64,000 bases of DNA from Pseudomonas tritici. Its GTDB lineage: Bacteria; Pseudomonadota; Gammaproteobacteria; Pseudomonadales; Pseudomonadaceae. The stretch spans positions 3,906,001 to 3,970,000 of the forward strand of contig NZ_CP077084.1 in the NCBI RefSeq assembly GCF_014268275.3, written 5' to 3'. Numbering within the stretch: the stretch's first letter is position 1; each line of letters starts with the position of its first letter. The position numbers and the translations under genes are program-made. Below the pieces are notes generated by a model. It was not told the DNA's origin. It saw only the letters and a list, made by a program, of their open reading frames with translations, and made no database searches. Below, in pieces: positions 1,208-16,231 of the stretch.

Positions 1208-1339
1208 ATGGGCTACATGGCTAGTGCAAACGCAAATAAAATCGCCGAGATGGAACAGCTGGAGCAGGAGCACGCGGATGATTTCATCGAGACCCTGCAG
1301 CTCACTGATACGGAAAGAGCGGAGCTGGAAGCCGAGTAA
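1208..1339 (+). CDS. Small acidic peptide, candidate RiPP precursor (43 aa)
   Basis: This is a 43-codon ORF with a well placed Shine-Dalgarno (GAGG at 1196-1199, 8 nt before the ATG), lying 49 bp upstream of a YcaO gene. The peptide starts MGYMASANANK and ends LTDTERAELEAE. It is strongly acidic (nine Glu, three Asp against one Lys and one Arg), probably helical, and has no Cys or Pro. The usual YcaO substrates for azoline formation are thus limited to one Ser and three Thr. Position, size and leader-like composition suggest a precursor peptide for the following enzymes; this is inference. It could instead be a scaffold or leader whose C-terminus is built upon, or a small regulatory peptide. 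A second in-frame Met lies at 1217. I recognise no family. Confidence 0.6.
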   Translation: MGYMASANANKIAEMEQLEQEHADDFIETLQLTDTERAELEAE

Positions 1340-1388
1340 GTGAGTCGAGGAGAGGCAATGCCTCTCCTCCTTCCCAGGAGTTACCTTC

Positions 1389-2633
1389 ATGAGCATTCCC
1401 CAAGCCATCGCCCCCGAACGCTGCCAGACACTCGTACTCGCCCACCATCAGATTCTCGCCCAGTTGAGTGCGTTGAATTTGCGCGCACACTTGCGCATCG
1501 TGGGTGAAGGCGAGCTGTGCGTCCAAGCCTGTTTGTACGACGCACATGCGATAGAGGTCGCACGCGGCGCGGGCAAGGGTCCTCCGGCAGCGGCACGTGT
1601 CGGCGCGTTATATGAGGCACTGGAACACTATTTGAGCGACGATCTGCATGCGTCGCCCCTTCACTGCCAGGCGTCCGGCTACTTTGTTGATCACCCACAG
1701 TTTGTCGATGACAGCGCGTTGGCATTGCTGGTCGCACAACAAGAAGACGCTGTCGTTTGCCGCACCTATCGCAGCTTGGTGGATGACCAGTCATTTTCCT
1801 ACCCGCTAGCGTTGACCTGCCCACGCTACTGCGAGCAGCCACTGCATAACGATCCGACAGACCTGCGCGTCCTGCGCCGTTATTCGAGCAACAGCGGAAC
1901 TGCCATCGGAGCCACGGCTGACGAAGCGCTTCTGCATGCCTTGAACGAGACTATCGAACGGGATGCCCTTTCACTGTTTCTGCTGGAGCATTTCTACTAC
2001 CAGCGCCCGCTCAGTCGTCTACGCCGCGTCTATCCGGACAGCCTTGGCCCCGAGGCCCGAGCCGTGTTGCAAACACTGAGTCAGCCCTTCGATGCAGAGG
2101 TGGTCTTGCTGGATATCAGCCGCGAATTCTGCGCGACCACCTGCCTGGCCTTTATCAACACGCCTTGCGCGATGCCAACCGTCTACGGCTCAGGCACCTC
2201 CCTGACGCCCGCGCACGCGGCCTGGCGTGCACTGACCGAACTAGCACAGTTGCAGGCGCTGGCGGTCGAACCGCCTTTGAGCCGTCATTTGCTCAATGCC
2301 CAGCGACACCTGGCACGATTCCCGCGCCTGCAACGCTGCCTGCAATTCGCCCCTGAGCGCCTGATGGCGCAACCCGTCGAATGGGTGCAACTCCACGAGC
2401 GGCCGGCGCCAACCGGTCTAGGCGAACAAATCACTCTCCTGGTGGGCGATATGGCCAGCCACAACCTGACACCCGGGGTGTGCCGCCTGTTTCAAAGCCA
2501 GCTTGGCACCACGCTCGTCCAGGTGGTGATCCCGGGGCTGGAGCGTTTTTTCCTGGTCTCCACCGGCAATATCGTGGTGCCGCAACAGCGCGGCAGGCGT
2601 CTATGCGGTGAATCGCAAGTTGCCACGCTATGA
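1389..2633 (+). CDS. YcaO-domain protein, stand-alone, putative RiPP cyclodehydratase-like enzyme
   Basis: This is a 414-aa protein with an AGGAG ribosome-binding site 8 nt before the ATG. YcaO signatures are present: an early E-x-x-E pair (YEALEHY, E76 and E79), NETIERDALS (E187, E190, R191) and the E-x-x-Q motif (ALTELAQLQAL, E284 and Q287). In known YcaO enzymes these glutamates bind Mg-ATP, which is used to phosphorylate a peptide amide during azoline, amidine or thioamide formation. Departures from the consensus are His80 where Arg is usual, and a C-terminus (VVIPGLERFF onwards) without the proline-rich PxPxP tail of azoline-forming members. No E1-like/ocin-ThiF partner, flavin dehydrogenase or TfuA is encoded nearby. 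Its last four bases overlap the next gene (ATGA), implying coupled translation. The product chemistry cannot be deduced. Confidence 0.88.
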   Translation: MSIPQAIAPERCQTLVLAHHQILAQLSALNLRAHLRIVGEGELCVQACLYDAHAIEVARGAGKGPPAAARVGALYEALEHYLSDDLHASPLHCQASGYFVDHPQFVDDSALALLVAQQEDAVVCRTYRSLVDDQSFSYPLALTCPRYCEQPLHNDPTDLRVLRRYSSNSGTAIGATADEALLHALNETIERDALSLFLLEHFYYQRPLSRLRRVYPDSLGPEARAVLQTLSQPFDAEVVLLDISREFCATTCLAFINTPCAMPTVYGSGTSLTPAHAAWRALTELAQLQALAVEPPLSRHLLNAQRHLARFPRLQRCLQFAPERLMAQPVEWVQLHERPAPTGLGEQITLLVGDMASHNLTPGVCRLFQSQLGTTLVQVVIPGLERFFLVSTGNIVVPQQRGRRLCGESQVATL

Positions 2634-3511
2634 ACCCCAGCACCGTGCAACGTCATTTTGAGCCATTGGGATTCGGGCTCAGTCAGCTGTTTGTACTCAA
2701 TACCGGGAGCCGCCACTGGGCAGGCCGCAACAGGCCGATGCCCGACGATCAGGGGCAACGCCGCCTGAGCAGCCTCTTGCGTCCCTCCATGCTGCTGGGC
2801 CCCCTCACCAGCCATCACTGGAGCAATGAAGGCGTTGCACTTTTCTATCAGGCCGCTACGCCTGCGGCCAAGCACCTGGCATTTATCGAAGCACAGCAGC
2901 AAATCCATAGCGACGTGTGCTTTCCGTATCCGCCGCTGGAGATGCACGCTGAGGAATTCGTCTGCCCGCCGAGCTTTTGGGAGTGTGACGATGAGCGCGC
3001 CACGCAGTTGAACATCGACGAAGCGCACTTTCGTGAACAGTGTGTCGCTGTGCTACGCGAGCGCCTCAAGCCTGGGGCGCTGATCCATGACCCGGCGTGC
3101 TCCACCGGCGAGTTGATCGCCCATCTGGCCCAGGCGCTGCCCCGTTGCCGGTGCCTGGGCTCGGACCTTTCGGCCTCGATGATTCGCTACGCATCGCAAC
3201 GCCACGTCGGTTCAACCGTGCGCTTCAGGCAAGCTGACGCTGCACGGGAAAACCCTGCCTGCGATGCCTTGATCCTACGCTTTCTCAACGCCGAGGTGGT
3301 CACGCGGCGCGACGCCGAAACCTTGTTGCGCACATTACTCGGCAGCCTCAAGCCGAGTGGCCTGGCCTTGGTTTTTGGTCATACGCCGGTACTGCCGGCA
3401 GTCCCCTGGATCGCACAAGCGCTGGGCATCACCTTGGAATCCTGTGTGGCAGCCCGGCCAGGACAGCTTGAGCTGTTTCAGTTTTACTTGCTCAGTCGCC
3501 CCTCGGCATGA
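2630..3511 (+). CDS. Divergent class I SAM-dependent methyltransferase
   Basis: This 293-aa protein starts inside the YcaO stop codon (ATGA overlap). The C-terminal half (about residues 145-290) is a Rossmann-type methyltransferase. Motif I is LIHDPACSTGEL (from residue 151), followed by LGSDLSASMIRYA (acidic residue for the ribose), an acidic motif RFRQADA and LKPSGLALVFGH. The first 140 residues match no family I know; they are rich in His, Trp and Phe and may position a peptide substrate. Its place between the YcaO and peptidase-like genes suggests methylation of a modified peptide, but a small-molecule substrate is possible. The stop overlaps the next start (ATGA at 3508). Confidence 0.8.
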   Translation: MNPSTVQRHFEPLGFGLSQLFVLNTGSRHWAGRNRPMPDDQGQRRLSSLLRPSMLLGPLTSHHWSNEGVALFYQAATPAAKHLAFIEAQQQIHSDVCFPYPPLEMHAEEFVCPPSFWECDDERATQLNIDEAHFREQCVAVLRERLKPGALIHDPACSTGELIAHLAQALPRCRCLGSDLSASMIRYASQRHVGSTVRFRQADAARENPACDALILRFLNAEVVTRRDAETLLRTLLGSLKPSGLALVFGHTPVLPAVPWIAQALGITLESCVAARPGQLELFQFYLLSRPSA

Positions 3512-4374
3512 AGCCTCTGTATCGCAGTGGGCACTTGCCGGTATCCGGCGGCCATCAGGTGTATTGGGAGCGGCACGGCCAGGAAGGTGGTGAACCGGTG
3601 TTCTTCTTGCACGGCGGGCCGGGCGGTAGTTCCAGCCACGATCACCTGGCGTTTTTTAACCTGGAACACTTCGAAGTCGTCCTGTTCGACCAGCGCGGTG
3701 GCGGACGCTCGAGTCCCCATGGCGAGTGGCAGAACAACGAAACGGCCCGGATCATCGAAGACATTGAAGCGTTGCGTAAGCATTTTGGCTTTACCCAGAT
3801 CACATTGCTGGGTATTTCCTGGGGTAGTTGGCTGGCGCTCAAATATGCTTGGCAGGCCCCATCGCGAGTATGCCGATTGGTGCTGGCATCACTGTTCGTA
3901 CCCACTCCCAATCACCTTGCCACCTACCATCGAGCACTAGCGTGCTACTTGAAGGCCGAGGCGGTTACATCGTTTGAACAAGTGTGCAAGGACCTCGAAC
4001 AATCTTGCGAACGCTTGCAACACAAGGCAGCGATGGCATGGGTCGGCGCAGCGCTGCGCCTGAATCGCCAGCGGATGGGCAAGGCAGCCTTGGAGCACTT
4101 CATTGATGAAGTCGCCTTGCGCGCAATCCGTCTGGAGGTGCACTACCATCGCGCCGGTTATTTTTTTTGCGAGGAGGATCAGGGGCTGACACTGAGCTGT
4201 GCGTGCCACGTGATACAGGGCATCAATGACCCTATCGGCCTGTCGAGCCTGCGTTGGTTGCGCCAACGAGCACTGCTGAAATGCAGACTATTGCGCGCCG
4301 GGCATGATGCGTTTGATCCCGTGCTGATGCGTGCAATTCAACAAAGCCTGATGCGGGCAAACTGCGGACAGTAA
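3508..4374 (+). CDS. Alpha/beta hydrolase, prolyl aminopeptidase (S33)-like
   Basis: This 288-aa protein is translationally coupled to the methyltransferase gene. Hallmarks of the proline iminopeptidase/S33 family are the oxyanion motif HGGPGG (H35 onward), FDQRGGGRSS, the nucleophile elbow GISWGSW (S104), an acid in QGINDPI (D241) and the catalytic His in AGHDAF (H266). Such enzymes remove N-terminal residues, often Pro, from peptides, and alpha/beta hydrolases in RiPP clusters trim or epimerise the product. A final trimming role here is inference. The cap region (about 130-220) is Cys-, Arg- and Leu-rich. The stop codon lies within the arm of the terminator hairpin that follows. Confidence 0.85.
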   Translation: MKPLYRSGHLPVSGGHQVYWERHGQEGGEPVFFLHGGPGGSSSHDHLAFFNLEHFEVVLFDQRGGGRSSPHGEWQNNETARIIEDIEALRKHFGFTQITLLGISWGSWLALKYAWQAPSRVCRLVLASLFVPTPNHLATYHRALACYLKAEAVTSFEQVCKDLEQSCERLQHKAAMAWVGAALRLNRQRMGKAALEHFIDEVALRAIRLEVHYHRAGYFFCEEDQGLTLSCACHVIQGINDPIGLSSLRWLRQRALLKCRLLRAGHDAFDPVLMRAIQQSLMRANCGQ

Positions 4375-4400
4375 AACGACACGCAAGCGTGTCGTTTTAC
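4371..4400. terminator. Perfect 14-bp inverted repeat, bidirectional terminator
   Basis: GTAAAACGACACGC (4371-4384) is exactly complementary to GCGTGTCGTTTTAC (4387-4400), with A and T runs on the two flanks. It lies between the convergent hydrolase and substrate-binding protein genes, so it should terminate transcription from both sides. The hydrolase TAA (4372-4374) is inside the left arm. Confidence 0.85.
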
Positions 4401-4418: not shown

Positions 4419-6161
4419 TTACTTACGCGCCGCCTCCCACGACTTGAGCAGGTCGCTGTAGCTCACGGTCTCGCCTTTCGGCTTCTCATTCGCCAGTTTC
4501 GGTTTTGGCGCGCCCGGCTGGTCGAACCAGTACTGCGCGTCACGCTCGGGGTTCATTTTCGGACCGCACACCGGTTGCACCTTGGAGCGCTCCAGGCGCG
4601 TCATGATCGCATCCTGCTCCTTGGCCAGGTTGTCGAGGGCCTGCTGCGGGGTTTTCTCGCCGCTGGCGGCCGCGGCGATGTTGCTCCACCACAGTTGCGC
4701 CAGGCGCGGGTAGTCCGGCACGTTGGTGCCGGTTGGCGACCATTCGGTACGCGCCGGGCTGCGGTAGAACTCCACCAAACCACCCAGTTTCGGCGCCATG
4801 TCGGTCATGGCCTGGGAGTTGATGTCGGACTCACGAATCGGCGTCAGGCCAACGATGGTTTTCTTCAGCGAGACGGTCTTCGAGGTCACGAACTGCGCGT
4901 AAAGCCAGGCCGCGAGTTTCTGTTTCTCCGGCGTCGACTTGAGGAAGGTCCAGGAACCTACGTCCTGATAGCCCTTCTTCATGCCCTTTTCCCAGTACGG
5001 TCCGACAGGTGACGGCGCCATGCGCCATTTCGGCGTGCCGTCGGCATTCACCACCGGCAAGCCCGGTTTGACCATGTCGGCGGTAAACGCGGTGTACCAG
5101 AATATCTGCTGGGCGATGTTGCCTTGGGACGGCACCGGGCCGGATTCCGAGAAGGTCATGCCCGCCGCTTCCGGTGGCGCGTAGGCTTTCATCCAGTCCA
5201 CGTATTTCTGTGTGGCAAATACCGCGGCCGGGCCGTTTGTGTCGCCGCCACGGGTGACGCTGGAGCCCACCGGGTGGCAGTCCTCCACGCGAATGCCCCA
5301 CTCGTCCACCGGCAAGCCGTTGGGCAGGCCCTTGTCGCCGCCACCGGCCATGGAGAACCAGGCATCGGTGAAGCGCCAGCCCAGGGACGGGTCCTTCTTG
5401 CCGTAGTCCATATGCCCATAAATGCGCTTGCCGTCGATTTCCTTGACGTCTTCGCTGAAGAATTTGGCGATGTCTTCATAGGCCGACCAGTTCACCGGCA
5501 CACCGAGGTCGTAGCCGTATTTTTCCTTGAACTTGGCTTTCAGCTCGGGGCGCTCGAACCAGTCGGCGCGGAACCAGTAGAGGTTGGCAAACTGTTGGTC
5601 GGGCAATTGGTAGATCTTGCCGTCCGGCGCGGTGGTGAAGGAGATGCCGATGAAGTCCTTGATATCCAGGGTCGGCGAGGTGAAGTTCTTGCCTTCATTG
5701 GCCATCAGGTCGGTGATCGATTCGGTCTTGCCATAGCGAAAGTGTGTACCGATCAGGTCGGAGTCGTTGACCCAGCCGTCATAGATGTTTTTGTCGGACT
5801 GCATCTGGGTTTGCAGCTTCTCCACCACGTCGCCTTCCTGCAGCAGGTCGTGGGTCAGCTTGATCCCGGTGATCTCGGTGAAGGCCTTGGCCAGCACCTT
5901 GGACTCGTACTCGTGGGTGGTGAGGGTTTCCGACACCACGTTGATCTTCATCCCACGGAAGGGTTCGGCGGCTTTGATGAACCACTTCAACTCTTCGAGC
6001 TGTTGGGCTTCGGTGAGCGTCGACGGCTTGAACTCGCTGCCGATCCATTTTTTTGCGGCATCTTCATACGCATCGGCCCAGGCCGAGGCGCTCAAACCGC
6101 TGAGGGCCAGTACGGCGGCCAATGAAATGCTATGTCGCAGCTTATTGTTTTTATTCAACAT
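4419..6161 (-). CDS. glpV: ABC transporter substrate-binding protein, GlpV-like (glycerol/polyol)
   Basis: This 580-aa protein begins with a cleavable Sec signal (basic MLNKNNKLRHS, hydrophobic core, ASAWA/DAYED). The mature protein looks like a large extracellular solute-binding protein with aromatic-rich ligand motifs (NLYWFRADWF, GWRFTDAWFSMAGGG). Length, gene order and neighbours match GlpV, the periplasmic glycerol receptor of the glpSTPQUV importer described in Rhizobium leguminosarum. It is the last gene of the operon, 32 bp after the small membrane subunit. Substrate specificity (glycerol against another polyol or sugar) is inferred from synteny. Confidence 0.82.
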   Translation of the reverse strand: MLNKNNKLRHSISLAAVLALSGLSASAWADAYEDAAKKWIGSEFKPSTLTEAQQLEELKWFIKAAEPFRGMKINVVSETLTTHEYESKVLAKAFTEITGIKLTHDLLQEGDVVEKLQTQMQSDKNIYDGWVNDSDLIGTHFRYGKTESITDLMANEGKNFTSPTLDIKDFIGISFTTAPDGKIYQLPDQQFANLYWFRADWFERPELKAKFKEKYGYDLGVPVNWSAYEDIAKFFSEDVKEIDGKRIYGHMDYGKKDPSLGWRFTDAWFSMAGGGDKGLPNGLPVDEWGIRVEDCHPVGSSVTRGGDTNGPAAVFATQKYVDWMKAYAPPEAAGMTFSESGPVPSQGNIAQQIFWYTAFTADMVKPGLPVVNADGTPKWRMAPSPVGPYWEKGMKKGYQDVGSWTFLKSTPEKQKLAAWLYAQFVTSKTVSLKKTIVGLTPIRESDINSQAMTDMAPKLGGLVEFYRSPARTEWSPTGTNVPDYPRLAQLWWSNIAAAASGEKTPQQALDNLAKEQDAIMTRLERSKVQPVCGPKMNPERDAQYWFDQPGAPKPKLANEKPKGETVSYSDLLKSWEAARK

Positions 6162-8154: not shown

Positions 8155-9247
<1,093 letters not shown>

Positions 9248-9248
<1 letters not shown>

Positions 9249-10342
9249 CAGGCAACCCTCGCGACACGGCGTCCGGGGGCCTGGACCAAACGGCCCTGGC
9301 CATCGAACACAAACAGTTTATGGGTGGGGATGTACACACGAATCGGCGCGTCGACGTCGTATTCGTGCACCCCCGACAGGTGCAGCACCAACAGGAAATG
9401 CTCGCTGCGTACGTGCAGGAAGGTTTCCGAGCCGCTGATCTCCGCGACTTCCACGGTCACCGCCAGCTCCAGGTCGTCGTCGTTGCTCGGTACCAGGCTG
9501 ATATGGCTGGGGCGTACGCCAAACCGGAACTCGCCTTCACCGATGGGGCGCAGGTCGACGTTCAGCGGGAAGTGCACGAAATTGGCGAAGCTCACTTCGT
9601 TGCCGCTGATACGCCCTGGCATCAGGTTGATCGGCGGTTCGGAAAACAGCTCAGCGGCCAGCACGGTCTGCGGCTGGTGATACACCTCGGCGGCTTTACC
9701 GCTCTGGACCACCCGGCCTTCGTGAAGAATGGTGGTGGTGCCACCGAGGGCCAACGCTTCATTGGGCTCGGTGGTGGCGTAGATGGCGATGGTGTGACGT
9801 GCCGCGAACAGTTCGCGCATTTCCTGACGCAGCTCTTCGCGCAGTTTGTAGTCCAGGTTCACCAAGGGCTCATCGAACAGGATCAATTCGGCGTCCTTGA
9901 CCAACGCGCGGGCCATGGCCGTGCGTTGCTGCTGGCCACCGGAGAGTTCAAGCGGGTGGCGCTGGAGGAATTTCTCGATGCGCAGCATCTTCGCGGTTTC
10001 CAGCACCTTGCCCTGGATCACCTCGTCGGACACACCGGCCTGGCGCAACGGTGAGGCGATGTTCTCGAAAACGGTCATGGTCGGGTAGTTGATGAACTGC
10101 TGATACACCATCGACACGTTGCGCAGGCGCACCGGCTTTTGCGTGACATCCACACCGTTCATCAGGATGCGGCCACTGCTGGGCTTGTCCAAGCCGGCCA
10201 TCAGGCGCATCAGGCTGGTCTTGCCTGACAGGGTGCGACCGAGCAGGACGTTAAAGGAACCGGCTTCGAAACGCAGGTTGGCGTCGTCGATCCAGGTTTG
10301 GCCTTCGACAACACGGGAGACATTTTCCAGGGTCAATGACAT
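9248..10342 (-). CDS. glpS: ABC transporter ATP-binding protein, GlpS-like
   Basis: This 364-aa ATPase is the first gene of the importer operon. Its Walker A is the unusual GRTLSGKTS, the signature [15 protein letters not shown] is canonical, and Walker B is [10 protein letters not shown]. The H-loop position reads YATTEP where His is usual (compare YVTHDQ in the partner). A C-terminal TOBE-like region follows (about 240-360). With its partner, which has a good Walker A and a poor signature, it suggests an asymmetric ATPase pair. Transcription should come from the sigma-54 promoter about 45 bp upstream. Confidence 0.87.
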
Positions 10343-10707: not shown

Positions 10708-12525
10708 ATGGCCGAACCCTTGGCTCACGACACCCTTATCCAGGAATCCTGGCGCCGTTGCCGCGCCTTCGGCCTGGACCACCAGAGCACGCCCAGCTTC
10801 GACCAACTGCCCGCCGAGGGCATCAGCCAATTGCTCGAAAGCCAGCACTCGCTGGTGCAAACCACCCATCAGGAAGTGCTGCCCTACTACGAGAACATCC
10901 TCAGCAACTCCAATTGCCTGATCATGTTGGCTGACAACCAGGGCCAGGTGCTGACCAGCTGGGGCACCCAGCGTTTTATCGAGCCCAAGCTGGCTCGGGG
11001 CTTCAACCCCGGCGCCAGTTGGATGGAGCGTTCCAGCGGCACCAACGCTATCGGCACCGCGCTGGCCTGTGCCCAGGCGGTGCATATCGAACACGATGAG
11101 CACTTTCTCAAGGCCAACCGCTTCATGACGGGCTCAGCGGCGCCGATCTTTGATGCCCAGCGCGAGATCATCGCGGTGCTGGATGTGTCCAGCGACAGCT
11201 ACCTGCCGCCCTCCCACACCCTGGGCATGGTCAAGATGATGAGCCAGACCGTGGAGAACCGGCTCATCCTCAACCTGTTTCGCGGTGAACATTTCCAACT
11301 GACCTTTAACACTGGCTTGAGCAATCTGGATAGCCAGTGGGCCGGTCTGCTGATTTTTGATGAGAGCGGCCAAGTGCTGTCGGCCAACCGTCGCGCCGAC
11401 AACCTGTTGGGCATCAGTTTGTCGCGGGTGATGATCGACAGTTTGTTCAAGGTGTCGTTGCTGGAGTTGTTGAACCAGCCGGAGGGGTTGCCCTTCTCGC
11501 TGCAAGCGGCGGGACGCAACCGGTTCCAGTGCGTGTTGAAGCGGCCTCAGCAGATGCCGGTGCAGGCCCGCGTATTCACGGAGCCGGTGCCGGCCAAACC
11601 CACGTCGATTGGCCTCAAGACCCTGCATTTTGGCGATGTGCGCGTGGAGAAAGCCGTGCGTCAGGCCGAGCGCTTACTGGAGAAGGACATCCCCCTGCTG
11701 ATCCACGGTGAAACCGGCGTGGGCAAGGAAGTGTTCGTCAAAGCCCTGCACCAGGCGAGCTCACGCAGCCAGAAAGCGTTTATTGCGGTGAACTGTGCCG
11801 CGATTCCGGCAGAGCTGGTGGAGTCGGAACTGTTCGGCTACGAAAAAGGCGCGTTCACCGGCGCCAATCAAAAAGGCAGCATCGGCCTGATCCGCAAGGC
11901 CGACAAGGGCACGCTGTTCCTGGATGAAATCGGTGATATGCCGCTGCCGACACAGGCCCGCCTGCTGCGGGTATTGCAGGAGCGTTGCGTGCAGCCGGTG
12001 GGCAGCAGCGAGTTGTTCCCGGTGGATTTACGCATCATTTCGGCCACCAACCGCACGTTACGCGAGCTGGTGCAGGCCGGGCGGTTTCGTGAGGATTTGT
12101 ACTACCGTATCGGCGGCCTGACGCTGGAGCTGCCGCCGTTGCGCGAGCGTACGGACAAGCAGGCGCTGTTCCAGCAACTGTGGCAGCAACACCGCGAGCC
12201 GACCCAATGGGCGGGCCTGAGCGCCGAAGTGCTGGCGCTGTTCGATCAGCACCCTTGGCCGGGGAACTTGCGCCAGGTCAGCAGCGTGTTGCAGGTGGCG
12301 CTAGCCATGGCCGAGGAGCAGCCGATCCGCCCGGAACACCTGCCGGATGATTTTTTTGTGGATTTGGACATGGCGGCGCCGCGGCCCGCCAGTGACGAGC
12401 TGGACGACAGCATCGACCTGAACCAGCGCTTGAAGGCTGCCGGCGGGAATATTTCCCACCTGGCGCGCGAGCTGGGCGTGAGCCGCAATACCTTGTACAA
12501 GCGCCTGCGCCAGAACGAAGGCTAG
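10708..12525 (+). CDS. Sigma-54-dependent transcriptional activator, GAF-AAA+-Fis (AcoR type)
   Basis: This is a 605-aa regulator. The start at MAEPLAHDTL is supported by GAAGG 8 nt upstream; a longer frame would run into the REPIN. An N-terminal GAF-like sensor (about 60-180) and a PAS-like segment (about 205-270) precede a central AAA+ domain. This has Walker A HGETGVGKE (about residue 333), the sigma-54-contacting loop GAFTGA (about 380), Walker B LFLDEIGD and the arginine finger region. The C-terminal Fis-type helix-turn-helix (about 570-600) contains NISHLARELGVSRNTLYKRLR. AcoR-like proteins respond to small alcohols or ketones such as acetoin. Divergence from a glycerol/polyol importer with a sigma-54 promoter makes it the likely activator of that operon. 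Confidence 0.9.
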   Translation: MAEPLAHDTLIQESWRRCRAFGLDHQSTPSFDQLPAEGISQLLESQHSLVQTTHQEVLPYYENILSNSNCLIMLADNQGQVLTSWGTQRFIEPKLARGFNPGASWMERSSGTNAIGTALACAQAVHIEHDEHFLKANRFMTGSAAPIFDAQREIIAVLDVSSDSYLPPSHTLGMVKMMSQTVENRLILNLFRGEHFQLTFNTGLSNLDSQWAGLLIFDESGQVLSANRRADNLLGISLSRVMIDSLFKVSLLELLNQPEGLPFSLQAAGRNRFQCVLKRPQQMPVQARVFTEPVPAKPTSIGLKTLHFGDVRVEKAVRQAERLLEKDIPLLIHGETGVGKEVFVKALHQASSRSQKAFIAVNCAAIPAELVESELFGYEKGAFTGANQKGSIGLIRKADKGTLFLDEIGDMPLPTQARLLRVLQERCVQPVGSSELFPVDLRIISATNRTLRELVQAGRFREDLYYRIGGLTLELPPLRERTDKQALFQQLWQQHREPTQWAGLSAEVLALFDQHPWPGNLRQVSSVLQVALAMAEEQPIRPEHLPDDFFVDLDMAAPRPASDELDDSIDLNQRLKAAGGNISHLARELGVSRNTLYKRLRQNEG

Positions 12526-13454
12526 CGCGGCTTGACCACCACCAGCAGGTCGGTGAAGTACTCCACTTGGATCGGCAGGTTATCCGCCAGTGACGACAGC
12601 GCCGCCGCCGTGTCATCCAGCTTGAAGACCCCCGATACCCGCAGGTTCTGCAGGGCCTGAGGGTCGAAGCGCAGCATCCCGTGGCGATAGCTGGCGAGGG
12701 TTTGCAGCACCTCGCTCAGGGGTTGGTCGTTGACTTTGAGCAGGCCGCGGGTCCAAGCGTCCGGGTCGGCATCGGCGATGGCTTGCGGCGGCTGGGCGCG
12801 GCCGTGGTCAAGGACCGAACGCTGGCCGGCCGTGACCTTGACCCCCTCGCTGGCTTCACCTTTGACCGCTACGCTGGACTCGATCACCGTGACGACCGTG
12901 GTGCCGTCTGCCGCCCGCTTGACCAGATAACGTGTACCCAATGCGGTGGCCGTGCCTTGGTCGGTGCGCACCACAAAAGGCCGTTGCGCATCCTTGGCCA
13001 CTTCGACCCAGAGTTCACCTTGCAACAGCTCTATCACGCGTTGATGCCCGTCGAATTTCACGTCGACTGCCGAGTTGCTGTTGAGCTGCAACTGGCTGCC
13101 GTCTTCGAGGGCAATCTGCCGGCGCTCGCCGACGGCGGTGCGCTGGTCGGCCATCCAGACCGGCACGTGTTGCAAGCCCAGCCAGCTGCACAAGACCACG
13201 CCGAGCAAGCCCGCCACCTGCGCACCACGCGGACGTTGCGGGGTAAACGCGCGGTTCAGGGCAACACGGGCGGGCTTGGCGGGCAAGGTGTCGAGGCTGC
13301 CCCACAAGGCGCGCATGCGTTCAATGGCCACGGCGTGACGCGGGTCGGCCTGGCACCAGGCATTAAACGCGTGACGGTCGGCGTCGCTGACGTCCTCGTC
13401 GTGCAGGCGGGTCAGCCACTGCGCCGCTTGCTGGATGATCTGCTCGGTGCTCAT
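12522..13454 (-). CDS. FecR-family sigma factor regulator (anti-sigma)
   Basis: This 310-aa protein starts at MSTEQIIQQAAQW, overlapping the sigma gene stop as ATGA. It has the usual order: a cytoplasmic DUF4880 anti-sigma region (WLTRLHDEDVSDADRHAFNAW), one membrane helix near residues 95-112 (VAGLLGVVLCSWLGL), and a periplasmic FecR domain (GERRQIALEDGSQLQLNSNSAV). The C-terminal segment VSGVFKLDDTAAALSSLADN in homologues contacts the receptor signalling domain. It would carry an iron/siderophore signal to the ECF sigma factor encoded just upstream. It converges on the sigma-54 activator gene, with overlapping stop codons. Confidence 0.92.
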   Translation of the reverse strand: MSTEQIIQQAAQWLTRLHDEDVSDADRHAFNAWCQADPRHAVAIERMRALWGSLDTLPAKPARVALNRAFTPQRPRGAQVAGLLGVVLCSWLGLQHVPVWMADQRTAVGERRQIALEDGSQLQLNSNSAVDVKFDGHQRVIELLQGELWVEVAKDAQRPFVVRTDQGTATALGTRYLVKRAADGTTVVTVIESSVAVKGEASEGVKVTAGQRSVLDHGRAQPPQAIADADPDAWTRGLLKVNDQPLSEVLQTLASYRHGMLRFDPQALQNLRVSGVFKLDDTAAALSSLADNLPIQVEYFTDLLVVVKPR

Positions 13455-13993
13455 ACCAGCGGGTCTGTCGGGTGCAGGCTGTGGTAGCAATGCACCAGGG
13501 CGCTGGAGATGTAGTTTTTGACGGTGCTGGAAGAGACGTCCAGGCGCGTGGCGATTTCGCTGTAGGTCAGCCCATCCAGGCGACTCAACAGGAAGGCTTC
13601 GCGGACTTTGGCAGGCAGGCCAGTGAGCATCTCGGCGATGCGTTCCAGGGCTTGCAGCGCCACATGAATCGCGGCTGGGTCGGGCATGCCGGCGTCTTCG
13701 CACTGGATCACCAACGCCTCCATGTAGGCTTTTTCGATACGGCGACGACGAGCGCCGTCGATCAACAACCGCCCTGCCGTGGTGGCCAGGAAGGCGCGGG
13801 GTTCCTTGATAGTTTGCGGTTCGGCCAGCATCAGTACGCGGATGAACGCGTCATGCGCCAGGTCGGCGGCATGCTGGGAGCACCCAAGTTTCTTGCGCAG
13901 CCAGCCGTGCAACCAGCCGTGGTGCTCGCTGTACATCGCCGTGAGAGTCTGCTGCCGGACGGAGTCGCCCAGCGCGGCGGGAATGTCATGCAT
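13451..13993 (-). CDS. ECF sigma factor, FecI-like
   Basis: This is a 180-aa RNA polymerase sigma-70 family protein. Region 2 includes AADLAHDAFIRVL (core binding and -10 recognition). Region 4 includes LTGLPAKVREAFLLSRLDGLTYSEIATRLDVSSSTVKNYI (the -35 helix-turn-helix). The ATG at 13993 is preferred; an in-frame TTG two codons upstream is possible. It lies between a TonB-dependent receptor and a FecR gene, the standard iron-starvation arrangement. It most likely drives transcription of the receptor gene. Confidence 0.92.
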   Translation of the reverse strand: MHDIPAALGDSVRQQTLTAMYSEHHGWLHGWLRKKLGCSQHAADLAHDAFIRVLMLAEPQTIKEPRAFLATTAGRLLIDGARRRRIEKAYMEALVIQCEDAGMPDPAAIHVALQALERIAEMLTGLPAKVREAFLLSRLDGLTYSEIATRLDVSSSTVKNYISSALVHCYHSLHPTDPLV

Positions 13994-14097: not shown

Positions 14098-14122
14098 AAT
14101 GTGGGAGCTGGCTTGCCTGTCA
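14098..14122 (+). repeat. Single REP sequence abutting the receptor stop codon
   Basis: GTGGGAGCTGGCTTGCCTG (14101-14119) is one REP arm without an inverted partner close by. It directly adjoins the receptor stop codon at 14120-14122. Confidence 0.7.
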
Positions 14123-16231
14123 GCGCCAGCTCCAGGAGACGCCGGTGTAGATGCCGCGGCCATCCGCTGGCGTCGAACGCGCTACATCCTGGCCCTTGTC
14201 GTCATAGCCCGGCGTGACCGTATTGGCGTAACGGCGGTTGGTGAGGTTGCGCAGGTCGACCCAGGCTTGCCAGTCTTGCTTTGGCGCGTCGTAGCCAAAG
14301 GTGGCGCCGAGGATGGTGTAGGACGCAGCGTAATAGGAGTTGGCGTAGTCGACCGCCACGCGCGAGGAATATTCGCTATTGAGGCTGGTAAAGAAACCCG
14401 TCGGGTGGCTGTAGCGCACTTGCGCCTGGTAGTAGTGCTTGGGGATGCCGGGCAAGGTGTTGTCGCCGAAACGGTCGTCGTCGCGGTAGTGGAAGTCGCT
14501 GAAGGTATAGGCCTGGCGCAGGGAGAGCTGGCCGTTGCGGCCGCCGTCCCACAAGGGGCTGAGCAGGCTCACTTCCAGGCCTTGGTGCACAGTGGGGCTG
14601 GCATTGGCTTCCGCGATAATGGCATTGCTGGTGGACGTTTGCGCCTGGGTTTCCACGGTGAGCAGTTCGTGGCGCACTTCAGAGCGGTACAGCGCCAGGT
14701 CCCATTGGCCGAGCCACGCTTCGCCACGCCCGCCGATTTCCAGGGTGGTGGCGGTCTGGTTTTCCAGGCTCACGCCTTCGCGCGCCAAACCTTTGGCCGG
14801 CCCACTCGTGAAGTATTTGTTGGAGCCCCAGATCATCGACCACGCGTGCGGCGGCTCGACCGAGCGGCTCAGGTTGCCGTACACCTGCAGTTGCGGATTG
14901 AAGTCATAACGCAGGCCGATGCGCGGCGCATAGTCCCAGTCGTGCTGGCTGAGCGGCGCCTGGCCTTCGGGGTAGGTGACCTGGGTTTCGCGCCGGGTGT
15001 AGATCGCGGCCAGGCCGGTCGTCAGCCACAGGTCAGGGACCAGCTCCAGGTCGTTGCCGATATGCAGCACGGTGTCGGAACCCAGATAGCTGTAGTCGCG
15101 GGTCTTGGTGCCCGGGGCGTAGCCAGCGGTATTGACGGCGGGCGTGCGCACATATTCCGCAGCGCCGTTGTTAGGCATCGCTTGGGTAGTGCGCAGGCCC
15201 AGCGTGGTTTTGCTGTCGTGGCCGAACAGCGTGTCCTGGCGGATGTAGTTGAGGGTGCCGCTGACATCGGTGTAGGCGACTTTAAGGCGGTTGGTGCCTT
15301 CGCGCAGGTCCATCGGGTAGTCGTGGTAGGCCAGCCCGACTTCGACCCGGGAATTGTCGTCCAACTGCAAGGTGGTCTTGTTGGCGATCCAGGTGGAGCC
15401 CGGTTGCAGGCGCTTGGAGTCGCGGGCGGCGTTGAGGCTGTTGGCCGCCCGCGGGTCATGGCTGATTTGCGCGCGCGTGAGCTTGCCGGGGGTGTCGTTG
15501 GTGGTTTCGCGGTAGCGGAAATAAAAGCGGGTTTCCAGGTCCGGGTTGAAGCGGTAGCCGAAGTTAGCGGCCACGCCCTTGCCGGTGGCGGCGCTCTGGT
15601 GCTGGTAGCCGTCAGACGCGGAGTCGGTGAGGCTGATGTAATAGTCGGCATCTCCCAAGACCTGGCCGGAACTGATCTCGCGCTGGGCGTAACCCTTGCT
15701 GCCCGCCTCGTATCGCACCTGCAACTTAGGCGCATCGTAGCCCGTGCGGGTCACGTAGTTGACCGCGCCACCGAGGGCCAGGGCGCCCTGGTCAAAACCA
15801 TTGGCGCCGCGCAGCACTTCGACGCGGCTTTGCCACAAGGGGTCTTTCAGCTCATAGGGGGTGCCACCAGGCCCGGTCAGTGGCAGACCGTCGAACATTT
15901 CATACAAGCCGGAGGCATGGGAACCGGGGCTGCGGTTCAGGCCAGAACCGCGAATCGAGAGTTTCACCCCTTCATTGTTCGCTGCCTTGGCGTACACCCC
16001 GGCCTGGTACTTGAACACGTCTTCGTTGGTGCTCACCCGCCCCTGCTGCACGCTGTTCATGTCGATGTAGTTAGTGCCGCCGGGGACGTTTCTGAGCTGC
16101 GCCTGCGCCATTTCACCGGCGCTGGCTTCGCTGCCGGTGACTTCGACCGGGGCCAATTGCAGGTCTTCGGCGTGCACCAGTGAGCTTAACGTCAGGGCGG
16201 CAAACAGGAACGGAGGGTGGCGCAACAGCAT
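14120..16231 (-). CDS. TonB-dependent outer-membrane receptor (siderophore-type), no STN domain
   Basis: This 703-aa protein has a Sec signal (MLLRHPPFLFAALTLSSLVHA/ED). A TonB-box-like LAPVEVTG follows, then a plug domain (about 45-155, with VKLSIRGSGLNRS and RVEVLRGANGFDQGALALGG) and a 22-strand barrel that ends in aromatic GVSWSWR. The plug starts within about 25 residues of the signal cleavage site. There is thus no room for the 80-residue N-terminal STN domain that classic FecA-type transducers use to signal to FecR. The ligand is unknown; the neighbouring sigma/FecR pair points to iron. No clear Fur box is seen upstream. Confidence 0.92.
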   Translation of the reverse strand: MLLRHPPFLFAALTLSSLVHAEDLQLAPVEVTGSEASAGEMAQAQLRNVPGGTNYIDMNSVQQGRVSTNEDVFKYQAGVYAKAANNEGVKLSIRGSGLNRSPGSHASGLYEMFDGLPLTGPGGTPYELKDPLWQSRVEVLRGANGFDQGALALGGAVNYVTRTGYDAPKLQVRYEAGSKGYAQREISSGQVLGDADYYISLTDSASDGYQHQSAATGKGVAANFGYRFNPDLETRFYFRYRETTNDTPGKLTRAQISHDPRAANSLNAARDSKRLQPGSTWIANKTTLQLDDNSRVEVGLAYHDYPMDLREGTNRLKVAYTDVSGTLNYIRQDTLFGHDSKTTLGLRTTQAMPNNGAAEYVRTPAVNTAGYAPGTKTRDYSYLGSDTVLHIGNDLELVPDLWLTTGLAAIYTRRETQVTYPEGQAPLSQHDWDYAPRIGLRYDFNPQLQVYGNLSRSVEPPHAWSMIWGSNKYFTSGPAKGLAREGVSLENQTATTLEIGGRGEAWLGQWDLALYRSEVRHELLTVETQAQTSTSNAIIAEANASPTVHQGLEVSLLSPLWDGGRNGQLSLRQAYTFSDFHYRDDDRFGDNTLPGIPKHYYQAQVRYSHPTGFFTSLNSEYSSRVAVDYANSYYAASYTILGATFGYDAPKQDWQAWVDLRNLTNRRYANTVTPGYDDKGQDVARSTPADGRGIYTGVSWSWR

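Follow-up and report, generated by a model that had tools for sequence, protein, structure and literature searches.

To our knowledge, YcaO enzymes that form macrocyclic amidines are known from bottromycin alone. Smaller amidine rings are found in klebsazolicin and streptamidine (PMC8442711). Gly1 of bottromycin is thought to attack the Val4-Val5 amide; macrocyclisation has been tied to the YcaO protein BtmF together with BtmI and thiazoline formation to a second YcaO, BtmE, and a dedicated peptidase removes the Met, since host enzymes handle Met-Gly-Pro poorly (PMC5103208). Here we analyse a YcaO operon in a 64,000-nucleotide stretch of Pseudomonas tritici (the window; contig NZ_CP077084.1, positions 3,906,001 to 3,970,000), part of a 6.24-Mb chromosome. 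Its four co-directional open reading frames (ORFs; 1208-4374, + strand) encode a small peptide, a stand-alone YcaO, an S-adenosylmethionine (SAM) enzyme and a hydrolase. The operon is very probably a pathway for a ribosomally synthesised and post-translationally modified peptide (RiPP) of this layout. Our best explanation, held with moderate confidence, is that it makes a bottromycin-type RiPP without azoles, and it is likely to represent a new variation on the bottromycin theme, not a system apart.

Comparison with bottromycin and other YcaO pathways

The operon and the bottromycin cluster have much of their organization in common: a precursor with a Met-Gly start, an N-terminal core and a C-terminal follower containing L-S-x-x-E-x-x-x-L; a stand-alone, BtmF-related YcaO with an H-Y-N residue signature; a hairpin 3' of the precursor; and an α/β-hydrolase gene. 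The differences lie in the enzymes and the core. Bottromycin clusters have two YcaOs and a core Cys, whereas the operon has one YcaO, no core Cys and no M17 peptidase gene. The operon SAM enzyme is isonocardicin-synthase-like, and the hydrolase is iminopeptidase-like and 32% identical to a bottromycin-cluster hydrolase over 72 residues only. The sequence-only reading had set bottromycin aside on the grounds that the peptide and the gene set differ. They do differ. Its claim that the operon fits no RiPP class is nevertheless not supported, since the YcaO groups, loosely, with BtmF and the precursor is laid out like that of bottromycin.

Pfam scans covered nine flanking genes of the window and eight genes of the upstream stretch L158, with some small ORFs falling outside the scan. 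These 17 genes encode regulators, transporters, a dehydrogenase/reductase and a glyoxalase; none is E1/ThiF-like, nitroreductase-type, TfuA or radical SAM, which agrees with the earlier observation that the usual YcaO partners are absent. The operon and its 17 scanned neighbours thus lack the E1-like/ocin-ThiF partner or flavin dehydrogenase of linear azol(in)e and cyclodehydratase pathways, and the TfuA of thioamitide/TfuA-YcaO pathways. Nor does the family have a counterpart of the Cys/Ser/Thr-rich core of linear azol(in)e peptides: by eye, no residue open to heterocyclisation is conserved throughout it.

Streptamidine, from the ami cluster of Streptomyces albidoflavus, is also a RiPP that depends on a YcaO; it carries an N-terminal amidine, and its cluster includes a hydrolase gene. 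In contrast to the operon, its YcaO, AmiD, has a Pro-rich C-terminus and works beside a TruD-like partner (AmiB), a dehydrogenase and transporters, and its precursor consists of a leader, the core HLSATH and a follower (PMC8442711). We rejected it as the same class. The streptamidine survey covers stand-alone YcaOs of Actinobacteria and may include the actinobacterial relatives described below, unlabelled (PMC8442711). The open-licence PubMed Central excerpts consulted yielded no pairing of a YcaO with an isonocardicin-synthase-like enzyme and no description of this Pseudomonas operon.

The YcaO protein and its relation to BtmF

The YcaO protein (414 residues; 1389-2633, +) scores 121.5 bits against PF02624 (cut-off 25.7), and its predicted structure (predicted local distance difference test score 90.3) matches YcaO structures over the full length. 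A chain of this size seems too short to accommodate a recognition domain fused to it. YcaOs in the PDB are weak sequence matches, with MJ1094 the best at 26.7 bits and LynD, TruD and MusD lower. E76, E79 and E284, which we take to serve the ATP site, are retained in nearly all YcaOs compared.

A scan of genome contigs with YcaO alignment A1 returned 77 loci. We also found two bottromycin clusters among 392 Streptomyces genomes. In these, BtmD is followed downstream by two YcaO genes, which we assigned by their order to BtmE (adjoining the precursor BtmD) and BtmF; the reported orientation of btmC-btmM and the gene overlap that starts at btmE agree with this (PMC7113386). With the family profile, eight BtmF sequences score 198-210 bits. 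BtmE reaches 39-48 bits, six other YcaOs at most 64.4, and 30 further YcaOs (29 from Streptomyces and the second copy in the window genome; two without a reported score) at most 70.6. The triple H80-Y165-N186 is present in 35/35 family members and 8/8 BtmF sequences, and in 0/2 BtmE and 0/35 other YcaOs, 29 of which have Arg at position 80. In a tree of 91 sequences the family forms a clade (support 82), and the family, BtmF, BtmE, two uncharacterised proteins (P0146 and P0147) and the lineages L069-L079 split from all other YcaOs with support 100. A second tree of 84 sequences, drawn up without BtmE and other long branches, joins the family, P0146/P0147 and BtmF with support 85. By profile score, tree and signature BtmF is the nearest characterised YcaO among those compared, and the window YcaO appears to group, loosely, with this macroamidine enzyme; we propose it as an N-terminal amidine or macroamidine synthase. 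The sequence-only reading had reckoned that clustering with a characterised family would tell against novelty; the clustering found is of this loose kind.

Several observations weigh against the bottromycin-type assignment. The window YcaO and BtmF are only 29% identical. When BtmE is included, the inner order of the tree is weak (27-44), and the split uniting the family with BtmF has support 27; in the second tree BtmF joins P0146/P0147 (93) inside the family, which is then no clade of its own. P0146 (308 bits) and P0147 (249 bits), both outsiders, score above BtmF and lack the H-Y-N signature, whereas the uncharacterised lineages L069-L079, at 113-188 bits, have it in all seven sequences aligned, so that profile score and signature mark a wider group. 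N186 lies within one of the two locus search patterns, which makes its presence in the loci partly a matter of construction; H80 and Y165 lie outside them. The precursor profile finds BtmD without significance (1.2 bits, E 0.025 against one sequence). The operon also lacks a BtmI-type amidohydrolase, a cytochrome P450 and radical SAM methylases, no radical SAM C-methyltransferase being present among its four genes and the scanned neighbours.

The YcaO might instead install a backbone thioamide, for example at Gly. YcaOs have been tied to Gly thioamidation in McrA (PMC5589413) and to thioamidation of uL16 (PMC13063428), Gly is a constant residue of the precursors, MJ1094 is the best PDB match, and there is a weak match to TIGR03266, the McrA thioamidation YcaO (44.8 bits, cut-off 365). 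No TfuA or sulfur-delivery gene was found among the scanned neighbours, however, and profile, tree and signature all indicate BtmF, which makes a thioamide improbable.

Another Pseudomonas YcaO lineage (L149-L152, L070-L078) is 26-31% identical to the query. All five aligned sequences of the L070 type have H-Y-N, and a scan upstream of YcaO in four loci (L149-L152) revealed no follower peptide of the kind seen here. The window genome has one further YcaO, ~300 kb away in a frame of 732-739 residues, which the family profile does not pick up. It looks like the type that thioamidates uL16 in E. coli (PMC13063428), a tentative assignment.

Precursor peptide, hairpins and distribution

The precursor gene (1208-1339, +; 43 codons, MGYMASANANKIAEMEQLEQEHADDFIETLQLTDTERAELEAE) was recognized as an ORF with homologues 5' of YcaO in other loci. 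Its putative core, Gly-Tyr-Met-Ala-Ser-Ala-Asn-Ala-Asn (1211-1237, +), is placed by conservation among group-1 precursors and by the bottromycin layout, with a presumed C-terminal limit, and is followed by a putative C-terminal follower motif, LQLTDTERAELEAE (1295-1336, +). The motif is common to Pseudomonas, Yersinia and actinobacterial precursors and to BtmD, which starts Met-Gly-Pro-Val-Val-Val-Phe and has ELSALEMEELE near its C-terminus; Nonomuraea-type precursors read MGNVVDYV...LTxAELxxLEEL, against MGYMASANAN...LQLTDTERAELEAE in the window. We rejected direct homology between the precursor and BtmD, given the non-significant profile match: the likeness is one of layout and follower motif. 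NF033414, the model of bottromycin-family precursors, does not match the window peptide at E up to 1.

Among 398 sampled Pseudomonas genomes, 55 match the YcaO profile at E 0.001 and 22, including the window's own, at 479 bits or more. A search that did not require Met-Gly found an acidic, follower-bearing peptide upstream in 20 of these 22 strong carriers, confirming the proposal that the small ORF is conserved beside YcaO; L140 and L143 gave none. All 20 have an M-G-Y start, with alternative starts in three, one of them upstream of M-G-Y in L144. A tblastn search, likewise free of this requirement, recovered the window peptide in 18 other loci, in all of which the peptide begins in frame with M-G-Y. 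A strict pattern that combined an M-G start, a Shine-Dalgarno sequence and the motif L-[STA]-x-x-[ED]-x-x-x-[LIMA] matched 5' of YcaO in 51/67 family loci (the window and L003-L068), with two off-target matches in 1.86 million strand-bases in the rest of the same DNA on both strands. Adding 12 precursors that were confirmed to be present, among them several whose motif contains N or P or whose Shine-Dalgarno sequence is weak, brings this to 63/67, a count in which Met-Gly is partly present by construction. Outside it, L025 has a Met-Gly reading, the L067 and L068 peptides start M-A and M-S and have a motif-like end, and no precursor was found in L017. The window peptide is a conserved partner of YcaO. 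L065 (Actinomadura sp. J1-007; upstream of 7001, and 8904-9536) has a single YcaO preceded by a tandem row of four Met-Gly precursors, which resemble one another in the follower and vary in the core; a nitroreductase-type gene lies 3' of the YcaO.

In group-1 precursors (numbered after Met) Tyr2 is invariant (20/20) and Asn7 (17/20), Ala8 (16/20), Asn9 (17/20) and Ser5 (17/20) are common. The frequency of Ser5 could suggest a partner-independent YcaO that converts a core Ser to an oxazoline, much as BtmE makes a thiazoline. This is very improbable: no Ser, Thr or Cys is conserved by eye across the group-2, Yersinia and actinobacterial cores, no nitroreductase-type dehydrogenase lies among the scanned neighbours, and BtmE scores poorly with the family profile, as given above.

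A perfect inverted repeat with 11-bp arms, absent from the sequence-only reading, lies between precursor and YcaO (1347-1369, +), 3' of the precursor stop, and is likely an attenuator or mRNA-stabilising hairpin. Hairpins recur at this place with differing sequences: within 45 bases 3' of the peptide, 20/32 proteobacterial loci have a perfect stem of at least 9 bp and 23/32 one of at least 7 bp, and folding gives long imperfect stems in seven of the other nine. Only 1/31 actinobacterial relatives has a perfect stem of at least 9 bp 3' of the precursor. BtmD is followed immediately 3' of its stop by a 7-bp perfect stem, and a putative terminator has been described between btmD and btmE (PMC7113386). 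Such a hairpin could plausibly raise precursor output above enzyme output. At the operon end, the perfect 14-bp inverted repeat (4371-4400, +) is a putative (bidirectional) terminator. With the ORF coordinates and ATGA overlaps at the YcaO/SAM-enzyme (2630-2633) and SAM-enzyme/hydrolase (3508-3511) junctions, it bears out the earlier description of four tightly coupled genes ending in a perfect hairpin.

The SAM enzyme adjoins YcaO in 21/22 strong carriers, so the gene set does co-occur, as had been supposed, and does so beyond chance. The constant part across relatives is peptide plus YcaO, to which Pseudomonas loci add the SAM enzyme and, in many cases, the hydrolase; no homologue of either was detected in one Stenotrophomonas and four Yersinia loci. 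A different possibility is that no natural product is secreted and the peptide serves as a scaffold, regulatory or cofactor-like in function, or that the operon is decaying. The cassette contains no transporter or immunity gene, its distribution is patchy (22/398 genomes), and L143 and L017 retain YcaO without peptide or SAM enzyme. Against this stands the retention of the peptide and the SAM enzyme in nearly all strong carriers, and we judge the possibility unlikely. L143 and L017, both of P. putida type, have the YcaO frame with no precursor or SAM enzyme detected and appear to be decayed cassettes.

SAM enzyme, hydrolase and proposed pathway

The SAM enzyme (293 residues; 2630-3511, +) had been read as a methyltransferase with an unassigned N-terminal domain. 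By sequence and fold it is instead a full-length homologue of isonocardicin synthase (NAT; PDB 8zhu/8zhv), the structure of which includes that domain, and with which it has the stretches ACSTG, LNA and GHTPVL in common. Given this match, we dropped methyltransferase as a working name and propose that it transfers a 3-amino-3-carboxypropyl group to Tyr2. The substrate of NAT is a nonribosomal β-lactam (nocardicin G is bound in 8zhv), whereas the operon enzyme adjoins a ribosomal precursor with a conserved Tyr. In microcin C, the acceptor is a phosphate-linked peptidyl nucleotide. This peptide antibiotic is likewise given an aminocarboxypropyl/aminopropyl group from SAM, although NAT is apparently not homologous to MccD (PMC10491745).

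The same RiPP could be modified by an ordinary O-methyltransferase acting on Tyr or an acidic side chain, like BtmB on the bottromycin Asp. The enzyme carries a Methyltransf_25 domain above cut-off, many of its listed homologues are named "class I SAM-dependent methyltransferase" by NCBI, and O-methylation is the last bottromycin step (PMC5103208). Its only strong PDB relative, by sequence and whole-length fold, is nevertheless an aminocarboxypropyl transferase with the common stretches named above, and we consider an O-methyltransferase rather unlikely. The assignment to Tyr has difficulties of its own. All 27 SAM-enzyme loci are from Pseudomonas, which confounds the association of Tyr and SAM enzyme with phylogeny; L016 keeps the Tyr without the SAM enzyme or the hairpin; one of the four L065 precursors (of which only the first was counted) has Tyr2 in a locus with no SAM enzyme; and the NAT fold leaves methyl transfer possible alongside aminocarboxypropyl transfer. 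A NAT-like enzyme does not always accompany YcaO: in a sample of 246 Streptomyces genomes, one carries a homologue for which the 19.9 kb examined contain no YcaO. A neighbour of this Streptomyces gene (L163, 9262-10257, -) starts, by eye, like a secreted subtilisin-type protease.

The hydrolase (288 residues; 3508-4374, +), earlier called S33-like, is an α/β hydrolase as stated and, more exactly, a proline-iminopeptidase relative: it scores 157.1 bits against TIGR01249, below the prolyl-aminopeptidase equivalog cut-off of 259.75, and its PDB relatives are 1azw and 1qtr. Among 18 aligned homologues, G-x-S-W-G (17/18), the His motif (17/18) and one Glu of the amine-binding region (16/18) are conserved; the Asp is retained in the 12 homologues shown and the second Glu is not. 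As it occurs in 19/27 SAM-enzyme loci, the hydrolase is accessory, and it may act as a trimming peptidase.

We suggest the following pathway. After translation, a host methionine aminopeptidase would strip Met1 and expose Gly; as residue 2 is not Pro, a housekeeping enzyme should suffice, which fits the missing M17 gene. The acidic C-terminal segment, judging from its conservation, would be the follower recognized by the modifying enzymes. At the expense of ATP, the BtmF-like YcaO would activate an amide of the backbone close to the N-terminus for attack by the Gly amine. The resulting cyclic amidine would have the ring of bottromycin, closed from Gly1 onto residue 4, or a smaller one closed onto residue 2 or 3. 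The isonocardicin-synthase-like enzyme would add a 3-amino-3-carboxypropyl ether to Tyr2, and trimming might fall, as a guess, to the iminopeptidase-like hydrolase and host proteases. The product probably carries an N-terminal amidine, and an aminocarboxypropyl group on Tyr is equally probable; the two together are possible, at somewhat less than even chances. More tentatively, we propose a class of azole-free N-terminal macroamidine RiPPs across Pseudomonadota and Actinomycetota, founded on a module of Met-Gly peptide and BtmF-like YcaO, to which Pseudomonas recruited the isonocardicin-synthase-like enzyme for a Tyr2 3-amino-3-carboxypropyl ether. If so, the choice by YcaOs of an amine over a thiol, hydroxyl or sulfide nucleophile would become directly testable, because the broad small-precursor family comes with related stand-alone YcaOs in two- to four-gene operons, Pseudomonas species included. 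The product would be the first ribosomal peptide with a 3-amino-3-carboxypropyl ether on tyrosine; aminocarboxypropylation of a peptide Tyr would be new among RiPP modifications, and the enzyme might find use in labelling peptides.

Genomic surroundings

The operon is flanked by an AraC-type regulator ending at 777 and by a convergent ATP-binding cassette transporter operon (solute-binding protein, 4419-6161). About 10 kb from it, a TonB-dependent receptor with partial resemblance to PqqU (14120-16231, -) lies near a FecR protein (12522-13703, -). Homologues of the receptor adjoin the cassette in eight Pseudomonas loci, one of them Pfam-scanned. We dropped the metallophore idea as cluster evidence, as an orthologue occurs in 265/398 Pseudomonas genomes; no Fur-box-like site stood out upstream in 28 loci (best 8-12/19 matches).

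In 20 actinobacterial loci (L034, L036-L038, L040, L041, L044-L053, L056, L057, L059, L060), a protein of ~733 residues is encoded 3' of YcaO. PADLOC returned nothing clear on these loci. By eye, its N-terminal part contains hydrophobic segments; it also has a NACHT nucleoside triphosphatase domain (PF05729 in both proteins scanned), which one would not expect beside a RiPP enzyme.

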